From the NCBI GenBank assembly GCA_018818265.1, contig JAHISN010000023.1, forward strand, positions 1 to 34,494: a stretch of DNA of 34,494 nucleotides, written 5' to 3'. This stretch comes from Patescibacteria group bacterium (GTDB lineage Bacteria; Patescibacteriota; 4484-211). Under the pieces are notes generated by a model. That model saw nothing but the letters and a program-made list of their open reading frames with translations, was not told the DNA's origin and ran no database searches. Both the position numbers and the translations under genes were made by a program. The first letter of the stretch is position 1. Each line of letters begins with the position of its first letter. Of the stretch, positions 19,612-29,370 are shown piece by piece.

Positions 19612-19670
19612 ATAGGGTTTAACCCTATTACTACTTGAAATATCAAATGTTAATAGGGTTAAACCCTATT
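19612..19670. repeat. two copies of palindromic ATAGGGTTnAACCCTAT
   Basis: 19612-19628 (T centre) and 19652-19670 (A centre); the second reaches the stop codon of 19670-21022. Confidence 0.85.
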
Positions 19671-21022
19671 TAATCCAGAAGGCAATTCCCTTTAACCGCA
19701 ATAAAAGTTGTCCCTTGACAAGTATTGTCTGTAGGCGGACAGGCGCGACCTGTCTCAACCAGGGCAATTATCACCCAAAACACCAGGGCCAAATCGTTCT
19801 TAAAATACGGAACATCAACTAGTCCGTGCGCCAGGCAGTAAATTAGAGCGGCTAGAATCCCCCAGTTAATTTTACTCTTATTTCCCTTTTTCAATTCTCT
19901 ATAAAAAACCAGCGCAATGATTCCAATTATGGCTGTTAGTCCCAGTATTCCCGTTTCCGTCCAGAAATTGAGAACAAAATTGTGCGGATATTCCAGCGGC
20001 TCGGCGTCACAGGTATAGTACTGCGTGCTGTATAGCTCTTTGAATCCTGAAAGACCAGCCCCCAGCATAGGATTGTCTTTGAGAAGATTAACTGTTCCTT
20101 CCCACACACACAGGCGCGTCAACCCTGTTCCTCCCGGCCGCACCCAGGGATTGGCAACCTGAGGGGTTAGTTTGGGAATTATAGAGAGCAGGACAAAATG
20201 GCTGATCAGATAGAGCATTGCGCCAGTAATAATCAGCTTGCGAAGTAGTTTAAGAGACAAGAATCTGGCCGAAACCAAAAAGGCTATACTAACACCCAAT
20301 CCAACTAATCCTCCGGTGGATTTGGTGAGAATTAAAACGAAGGTTATTAAAATCAACACTAGGCCTTCAAATATCCGAGGCTTGCCTTTCCTGATAATCT
20401 TTCTATTCTTGGCAGAACTTCGTACCGCACATAGGGGCGGCCCCTTTGAAGGGGCCGCCCCTATTTCTAGTGCTAGTAGAAGCGCAATTATCGGCCCTAT
20501 ATACAGTGCAAGGGCATTCCCGCTATTGAACGTGGCGTGGGCGCGGCCACCAGTGGCTTCGTGTATAGCAAAAACTGGCCATTTAAACAAAATCTGCGAG
20601 ATACCTATTAGAGATAACCATAAAGCTGCACAAGTTAATGCCCAGATAATTTCTTTTCTCTTAATTATTCCACGTTTCAAACAATCGGTCAGAACATAAA
20701 AGAAAATAATCGGCTCAATAAAGTAAGCCTTAAAAATTCCCAAGCCCGCACGTAAGTCGGGGGTTTTGAAAAGCGAGATGATACAAGCAAGAAGCAAAAA
20801 TAGGGTTAAACCCTGAAAAGGGTTTAACCCTGTTTCAGCCGAGTCCGAGAAAGACTTTCCCTTCCCCATTCTAAAAACCAACCAAATCAATACTGTTAAT
20901 CCGATCAAATGTTCCAACAGCGTCGTCGGCAACCCCCAGTATGACCAGCGAATGATATAGAGGGGGGAGAGGAATATAGTCGTGAAAATTGAGATTTTTA
21001 GTAATTGCGATAGTGTTTTCAT
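19670..21022 (-). CDS. O-antigen ligase / Wzy-like polymerase
   Basis: Multi-TM protein with GGTGLTRLCVWEGTVNLLKDNPMLGAGLSGFKELY and EYPHNFVLNFWTETGILGL; contains in-frame palindromic elements. Confidence 0.82.
   Translation of the reverse strand: MKTLSQLLKISIFTTIFLSPLYIIRWSYWGLPTTLLEHLIGLTVLIWLVFRMGKGKSFSDSAETGLNPFQGLTLFLLLACIISLFKTPDLRAGLGIFKAYFIEPIIFFYVLTDCLKRGIIKRKEIIWALTCAALWLSLIGISQILFKWPVFAIHEATGGRAHATFNSGNALALYIGPIIALLLALEIGAAPSKGPPLCAVRSSAKNRKIIRKGKPRIFEGLVLILITFVLILTKSTGGLVGLGVSIAFLVSARFLSLKLLRKLIITGAMLYLISHFVLLSIIPKLTPQVANPWVRPGGTGLTRLCVWEGTVNLLKDNPMLGAGLSGFKELYSTQYYTCDAEPLEYPHNFVLNFWTETGILGLTAIIGIIALVFYRELKKGNKSKINWGILAALIYCLAHGLVDVPYFKNDLALVFWVIIALVETGRACPPTDNTCQGTTFIAVKGNCLLD
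20432..20465. repeat. 34-nt perfect inverted repeat inside the CDS
   Basis: ATAGGGGCGGCCCCTT-TG-AAGGGGCCGCCCCTAT: 16-bp stem, 2-nt loop. Confidence 0.9.
20802..20831. repeat. two AGGGTTnAACCCT palindromes inside the CDS
   Basis: 20802-20814 and 20819-20831; encode GLNPFQGLTLF on the minus strand. Confidence 0.85.
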
Positions 21023-21245: not shown

Positions 21246-22877
21246 CTAGGAGAAACTGCTATCTAAGCCATACGTAATTCCCAAGACGATCCACATCCAC
21301 TCCATCACCCACGGGTAAAATAGAGAATTAACAAACAGCGAGTGGACAAATAATGTGGGGATGGAAACAACGATTGTTAATAATAAGGCTTGAGACAAAC
21401 TAATCGATTTTGAATTTTTGATTTTCACTTTTAACCCGCCTAGCGGCGAGACGAGCTTTTCACCACGAAAAGCTTCGCTACGTGGCATGCTTTTAACTTT
21501 TAACTTGCGTAACCGCAACACCGACTCCAGCCAAATAGAACTATATAGTAGTAGGTATGAAATAAGCCCAAAAATACCCGTCGTTGCCCAAACAAAGAGC
21601 AGTGATGAGTCCGCGCCGGCGCCTGCATGCCCGCTAACTTCGGACAGTCCCTTCGCATTGCGAAAGTAGCCATAATGTTCTTGGGCGTACCTAAAGGAAT
21701 TGAAGCCAACTCCGGTGAGCCAGTTATCTTTAACAATTTCACCTGTCTTCAGCCAATCTTCAACGCGAGCCCTTGCCGTAATATCTAATTCCAAAGCGCC
21801 CACAACCCTCGTCCGTACGCGGGGGACAAAAAGAAATGCTAGAACAGCAAGCACGAAAAACACAACCAGTAACTTGCGAGATTTAAGTATTCCCAGGCTG
21901 ATAACAGCAACAGCGAATGCCAAATAGGTACTGCGAGAGAAAGTGAGAAGACAGCAGACAGCTGACAGTAGGCAGCTGACGAGTAACCATTGACCATCTT
22001 GCCACGTTAATCCGCCAGCAGCGGATTTTACGTGGTGACCTTTGACCATTGACACTGTACTGACACGCTTCAGCGTGTTATCTTCTTGGGTAACAGACTG
22101 AAGTCTGTCAGTACAGGCCAGCTTCTCCCAGACTGGACTGACAAGGACGTCAAACGTCCCATGGCTTCCACGCGATGCCGCATGGCGTCGCAGCTTGTTA
22201 CTATTTCGGGTAAGCAGCAATGACACCGCCAGAACAAAACCTAAAATCAGAAAAATCCCTGCAAAGTTGGGATCAAAAAATGTAGAAAGCAAACGGTAAT
22301 AGTGCGGGTCCCAGCCGTGCTGGATGTATTTAGAAAAATCTGGAAAGAGGAGAAATTGGACAAGCCCGAGGAGAGAGAAGATTGTTATGGAAAGAAGAAG
22401 ATAACTCGAAATCCGTAAAGCGTAATTCGTAATTCGTAATTCATTACTCATAATTCGCGCTTCGTTTTTATCTAAAGCAGTTTCACCCGCACTCAATTTC
22501 GTTTCATTTCCTTCCTTAACTACAGAAAACACAATCGGGTACAGAAAGGCATACTGCACCCATCGCCACCAATAGAGACCGCTAACAATAAACTCGGCTA
22601 TACCTAGCCAGCGAAAACTATTCAATAAACTTAAGAAACTTATTGCCGTAAATAGCAGGATCAAACCGCTAAATGGAGGAAGGTCTAATTTCTTTCTAAT
22701 CGCCAATTGCCGTGTGAGCCAGATAAAAATTAAGAAGGGGATAAGCAAATCGTTATAATAAACGGTTATGTCAGGCAGATTTACCAATCCCAGAGGAATC
22801 TTGGAGAATTGGCCTAGAGGCAAGACTAAGATAAGAATGTATAGTAACAACTTTTCTAGCTTCATGCTGTCTCCCAT
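21246..22877 (-). CDS. O-antigen ligase / Wzy-like membrane protein
   Basis: Multi-TM; TFSRSTYLAFAVAVISL and TGEIVKDNWLTGVGFNSFRYAQEHYG; long repeat-derived loop. Confidence 0.82.
   Translation of the reverse strand: MGDSMKLEKLLLYILILVLPLGQFSKIPLGLVNLPDITVYYNDLLIPFLIFIWLTRQLAIRKKLDLPPFSGLILLFTAISFLSLLNSFRWLGIAEFIVSGLYWWRWVQYAFLYPIVFSVVKEGNETKLSAGETALDKNEARIMSNELRITNYALRISSYLLLSITIFSLLGLVQFLLFPDFSKYIQHGWDPHYYRLLSTFFDPNFAGIFLILGFVLAVSLLLTRNSNKLRRHAASRGSHGTFDVLVSPVWEKLACTDRLQSVTQEDNTLKRVSTVSMVKGHHVKSAAGGLTWQDGQWLLVSCLLSAVCCLLTFSRSTYLAFAVAVISLGILKSRKLLVVFFVLAVLAFLFVPRVRTRVVGALELDITARARVEDWLKTGEIVKDNWLTGVGFNSFRYAQEHYGYFRNAKGLSEVSGHAGAGADSSLLFVWATTGIFGLISYLLLYSSIWLESVLRLRKLKVKSMPRSEAFRGEKLVSPLGGLKVKIKNSKSISLSQALLLTIVVSIPTLFVHSLFVNSLFYPWVMEWMWIVLGITYGLDSSFS
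22002..22186. repeat. cluster of hairpin elements inside the O-antigen ligase-like CDS
   Basis: 22002-22035 hairpin; 22056-22080 and 22091-22115 inverted 25-bp copies; GGACGT-CAA-ACGTCC; 22165-22186 also found at 31723-31744. Confidence 0.85.
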
Positions 22878-22917
22878 TTTACCACTCTATAGATTTTAAC
22901 CCTGAATGCTCTTAAAT

Positions 22918-22947
22918 AGGGTTTAACCCTATTCAGGGTTAAACCCT
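22918..22947. repeat. two AGGGTTnAACCCT palindromes
   Basis: 22918-22930 and 22935-22947; extra half-site AACCCTGAA near 22898. Confidence 0.85.
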
Positions 22948-23012
22948 GTTTCTAACTCTTTACGACTCTATAGAAATTTTCAGACCTGTTTGGTAAAATA
23001 AGTTTGGAACTC

Positions 23013-29264: not shown

Positions 29265-29292
29265 GCGGCAGAATTTCTAAGAAGCTTCAAAT

Positions 29293-29341
29293 AGGGTTCA
29301 ACCCTCAAATAGGGTTCAACCCTCAAAGAGGGTTGAACCCT
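29293..29341. repeat. three 18-bp-period copies of AGGGTTSAACCCT
   Basis: 29293-29305, 29311-29323, 29329-29341. Confidence 0.9.
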
Positions 29342-29370
29342 AATAAGATTAGCGTCATTGAGGGGGAACA

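Follow-up and report, generated by a model that had tools for sequence, protein, structure and literature searches.

Known Palindromes in Coding Sequences

For the most part, palindromes in coding sequences have been regarded as a peculiarity of Rickettsia, apart from scattered intragenic REPs elsewhere. The Rickettsia elements (RPEs; Ogata et al. 2000, 2002) are approximately 105–150 nt long according to the reviews in PMC2229807 and PMC10969869; those of R. conorii analysed in PMC3733652 have a CGTC end. The palindromes described below resemble them in being fused in frame within unrelated conserved protein genes (PMC2229807, PMC10969869), in forming several families in one small genome and in their presumed tolerance at loops. 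The differences concern size, sequence and genetic surroundings. The units found here measure 24–62 nt and lack the CGTC end, so neither the tag nor the length of an RPE is present; their sequence families are unrelated to RPEs, and two of the families are accompanied by RAYT genes.

The second related system is represented by GTAG-REPs, BIMEs and REPINs together with RAYT genes. A hairpin of 20–26 nt whose 4-nt head remains unpaired, inverted pairs and stem covariation are shared with the elements studied here, and Y1/RAYT genes are flanked by two of the families (A and B) in this genome as well (PMC3733652, PMC3116915). Intragenic REPs had been listed before (PMC3733652) for DNA-repair genes such as uvrB of R. 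conorii, for DNA ligase and for tRNA synthetases. Unlike GTAG-REPs, the core element of the present locus (element C) carries GTAC in place of GTAG and has no RAYT gene adjacent to it, and the in-frame copies in this genome appear unusually widespread in core genes. PMC3733652 names a number of phyla with GTAG repeats; Patescibacteria, the host group here and the one to which genome size and gene content also point, are not among them.

Two further systems should be mentioned. The protein-coding palindromic repeats of Wolbachia (Ogata 2005), as far as they are presented in PMC2229807, are also in-frame coding palindromes outside Rickettsia, although in another host. Inverted repeats within protein-coding genes are known from nematomorph mitochondria too (PMC6649704); those are perfect palindromes, both arms of which encode conserved residues, whereas the copies described here constitute dispersed, diverged families in unrelated genes. 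In-frame insertion of the RPE type and intragenic GTAG-REPs are already known kinds. No report of coding palindromes or REP insertions in Patescibacteria was found in the open-access literature searched, and the sequence families, the host lineage and the breadth of the phenomenon appear to be new.

The Insert in the O-Antigen Ligase-Like Gene

The window, i.e., the whole stretch of 34,494 nucleotides that was analysed, contains an ORF (21246–22877, minus strand) assigned to the Wzy_C (O-antigen ligase-like) membrane proteins (543 aa; Pfam PF04932, E=2.9e-17). Its orthologues in three genomes of the same family (G001–G003) show 53–67% identity per aligned segment. Compared with the orthologues, the ORF carries an in-frame insertion of ~213 nt (71 aa) at ~21987–22199. 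The preliminary description had placed a cluster of hairpins at 22002–22186 and had proposed alignment with orthologues as a check; the loop is real, and the alignment makes it slightly larger. About 71 residues are without counterpart in each of the ten related proteins aligned, three of which come from the same-family genomes, while both flanks align and the conserved Wzy_C motifs are kept. The insertion is lineage-specific.

The ORF is open across the whole insert with no internal stop, as had been claimed. The reading frame used contains no stops, and the other five frames contain 2–4 each. Folded as RNA, the insert reaches -85.4 kcal/mol (z = -5.07), and none of 200 shuffles was equally stable. 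The Rfam search of the window returned tRNAs only, so the insert falls under no known RNA family; phage records gave no match.

When the region was compared by BLAST with the complete genome (1.19 Mb in 89 contigs, 11 short contigs being masked), the insert DNA resolved into a mosaic of three separate dispersed families and heptamer tracts. Hairpin family E, CCACGTTAATCCGCC..GCGGATTTTACGTGG (CCACGT..ACGTGG, 22001–22035), is supported by its fold and by diverged copies on contigs C72, C65, C57 and C58. It is followed by the heptamer tract TGACC(T/A)TTGACCATTGAC (22036–22053), which separates it from the inverted pair of element C (22055–22116). A hairpin GGACGT-CAA-ACGTCC (22145–22159) belongs to no clear family and has one weak partial match elsewhere. 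Palindrome family D, GGCTTCCACGCGATGCCGCATGGC.. (palindrome TTCCACGCGATGCCGCATGGC, 22163–22194), occurs at ~24 genome loci. The flanking hairpins noticed earlier are present, but the elements at 22001–22035, 22055–22116 and 22163–22194 represent three separate families and not one.

A genuine conserved domain or functional insertion, the hairpin-forming DNA being incidental, could also leave a loop that is in frame and open within an otherwise conserved protein. This explanation is extremely improbable: the same dispersed repeats of which the loop is built also occur in unrelated genes and in intergenic DNA. As to the identity of the loop, a conserved protein domain was rejected, since all ten related proteins are without it.

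Two other inserts interrupt the same ORF. Hairpin family G (KLKVKSMPRSEAFRGEKL, 21456–21507, minus strand) is missing from the orthologues; it occupies nine genome loci, five of them in frame in ORFs, including those of LeuRS, 5'-3' exonuclease and TopA. The TAATTCG heptamer tract found by TRF at 22402–22457 (minus strand) encodes NELRITNYALRIS, and the orthologues are shorter there.

Element C: Copies, Covariation and Distribution

The first arm of the inverted pair (22055–22080, plus strand; GTAC-TGACACGCTTCAGCGTGTTA core at 22057–22080) and the second (22091–22116, minus strand) are 26 nt each, 85% complementary and separated by a 10-nt spacer, forming a REPIN-like pair. The 25-nt pattern of the arms has two matches in the window, and no match appeared in 100 shuffles. 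The arms differ at four stem positions with pairing preserved; both the location of the pair and the compensatory nature of its differences had been correctly recognized in the preliminary description.

The genome-wide covariance analysis proposed there extends this result. Element C is a 24-nt REP-type unit, GTAC-TGACNNNCTTYAGNNNGTTA, dispersed in 20 genome copies when up to three mismatches are allowed. Across these copies, 98.3% of the stem cells are paired, double-sided changes occur in 25 cells, and the covariation score is 0.442; pairing, double-sided changes and score were reached by none of 500 shuffles. Sliding the stem partner abolishes the covariation signal. The pattern search with two mismatches gave 21 matches in the genome against one for the reversed control.

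The features characteristic of REP/REPIN elements (a palindrome of 20–40 bp, many dispersed copies, conserved pairing) are all observed in element C, and its inverted pairs on contigs C61, C29, C57 and C84 provide the larger hairpin. Its location is mainly extragenic: of the 20 copies, 4 are situated clearly within ORFs of 150 aa or more, vs 65% expected from random 30-nt sites. The earlier comparison with the peptide-encoding palindromes of Rickettsia holds for the kind of insertion and for the different sequence family, and the core of the insert is structurally of the REP/REPIN rather than the RPE type (inverted pair, unpaired 4-nt head). The head tag is GTAC, with C, A or T and never G in column 4. 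Element C is assigned to neither GTAG-REPs nor RPEs, because the GTAG tag is absent, as are the RPE tag and length.

In the same-family genomes G001–G003, the two-mismatch pattern search gave no matches. Of the 19 other genomes searched in all, three have one or two scattered imperfect matches, with no convincing copy. Two single matches in the genome-contig scan have no inverted partner, and one of them lies inside an unrelated protein-coding gene; these were taken as chance.

RAYT Genes

Two Y1/RAYT-like genes were found in the genome, on contigs C21 and C10. The C21 gene (L107, G000:C21 2466–3700) scores above the cut-off of NCBIfam REP_Tyr_transpos (REP-associated tyrosine transposase). 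GTAG-tagged family A elements lie all around it, and its own frame contains REPs and a copy of family D. The C10 gene (G000:C10 25011–25835) is RAYT-like, its score remaining under the NCBIfam cut-off (46.9 of 80). Triple units of family B (AGGGTTNAACCCT) stand symmetrically on both sides of it, and another copy lies inside its ORF.

Families A and B thus show the RAYT association of GTAG-REPs, and element C does not: six RAYT protein queries, run against the unmasked contigs, found no RAYT gene next to its copies. The mobiliser of element C may act in trans, may be extinct or may be located on a masked short contig.

Palindromes in Other Genes of the Genome

At least seven palindrome families were found in frame inside conserved genes. 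The housekeeping and core hosts include ValRS, IleRS, PheT, LepA, RecR, TopA, UvrB, TsaD (which carries a copy of element C itself), MnmA and Elp3. ATP-dependent DNA ligase, KsgA, ArgRS, 5'-3' exonuclease, asparagine synthase-like and glycosyltransferase genes are further in-frame hosts. In total, in-frame repeats are present in no fewer than twelve conserved housekeeping genes, and the RPE-like mode of insertion suspected from a single gene proves to recur throughout the genome.

In all ten insertions checked, in eight proteins, the repeat overlaps a segment missing from a solved (PDB) homologue; 10–50 residues are added, the alignment breaking or gapping at the repeat, and the loop positions are deduced from these alignment gaps. 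Both inserts of LepA are missing in relatives, whose ORFs are mostly 585–650 aa and whose matches break at both insertion points. In UvrB, a triple unit of family B is read as NRVQPSNRVKPSNRVEP. Predicted peptides across the inserts include LQSVTQEDNTLK and the UvrB segment VQPSNR. The frame in which family B is read varies (GLNP.. and NRVQPS..); this speaks against selection for one particular peptide and also weakens the case for a conserved domain in the Wzy_C protein.

For families A, B, C, D and F, 8–28% of the loci are situated clearly within ORFs of this size, far below the 65% given above; such a pattern would result if coding insertions were mostly purged. Family B2 (GGGGCNGCCCC) has no such depletion (16 of 26 loci inside), its short one-mismatch pattern admitting chance GC-rich matches. 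The 12-mer island method also catches lysine-rich coding repeats (23.6 kb in the Markov control vs 58.6 kb observed), and for this reason the conclusions rest on family-specific counts.

The frame is open and stop-free in all examined insertions except LeuRS. These open frames bear on another explanation, in which the mature protein is without the inserts, either because they are cut out of the transcript or because the ribosome skips them as in the case of the mitochondrial byp elements. The great stability of the RNA hairpins and the presence of insertions in genes expected to be essential would suit such a process. Open, stop-free frames would be needless under it, the ORF depletion suggests a cost at the DNA or protein level, and neither a splicing nor a bypass signal was observed; removal or bypass is considered very unlikely.

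The only leucyl-tRNA synthetase gene found (LeuRS; L135, G000:C49 9251–11912, minus strand) is interrupted. It consists of two overlapping ORFs, the reading frame shifting at a heptamer tract (AAGTCAAAAGTCAAAAGTTAAAG), and the C-terminal ORF additionally has an in-frame palindrome insert. The interruption may represent a real frameshift, recoding or an assembly error.

The inserts could also mark a decaying gene or an assembly artefact, i.e., a non-functional ORF. Compatible with this are the three separate inserts in a gene that is not universal, a genome that looks metagenome-derived (judging by its contigs) and the frameshifted LeuRS. On the other hand, the same families stand in frame in genes that are universally conserved and whose domains are intact, the Wzy_C motifs persist in the host ORF, and frames and covariation are preserved at many loci, unlike in an artefact. 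Decay or artefact is therefore quite unlikely.

Proposed Origin of the Insert

It is highly probable that the loop is a pile-up of selfish palindromes of the REP/REPIN type and heptamer tracts, which were kept only where they were in frame in tolerant loops, and which would be translated. Hairpin elements in single-stranded form could insert during replication, their mobility being possibly provided by single-strand HUH (Y1/RAYT) chemistry, as the two RAYT-like genes suggest. Insertions breaking the frame or hitting structured parts would be purged. The survivors would be those in frame, stop-free and located in loops or linkers, where they would be translated as an extra peptide. This peptide is probably functionless and the insertion near-neutral. 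The same process would have decorated many housekeeping genes of the genome.

A more active role could be imagined: composite modules made of palindromes and heptamer tracts would insert with a preference for linkers between domains, via a single-strand DNA mechanism, and would continually supply new linker peptide to core enzymes instead of being passive survivors. This proposal draws on the composition at C57:1021–1104, where the order of the insert (hairpin E, heptamers, REP C) is repeated; it is considered unlikely.

A compact genome that combines many families and RAYT genes with at least ten clean insertions in structurally solved proteins offers a strong natural experiment. It makes testable in what way selfish DNA contributes protein sequence, which loops can accommodate insertion and whether REP/RAYT systems are the driver. 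It is also a warning that an unusual loop in a protein of such a genome may represent mobile DNA and not an adaptation.

Other Repeats in the Window

The neighbouring Wzy_C ORF (19670–21022) has two in-frame palindromes of its own on the minus strand, one of family B2 (AGGGGCGGCCCC pair, 20431–20472) and one of family B (AGGGTTTAACCCT pair, 20789–20833). Intergenic arrays of the AGGGTTNAACCCT family are located near ORF ends at 19612–19669, 22895–22951 and 29287–29342, where they might possibly serve as terminators.

A 14-nt tandem tract (GACAGTAGACAGCT, 21950–21985, minus strand; TRF and sequence) borders the insert and encodes the hydrophobic peptide LVSCLLSAVCC. Heptamer-type tandem tracts, of which those at 21950–21985 and 22402–22457 lie in the window, are present on many contigs and encode in-frame peptides of period 7 (for example NELRITNYALRI and LVSCLLSAVCC). 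One such tract appears to span a portion of a membrane helix.
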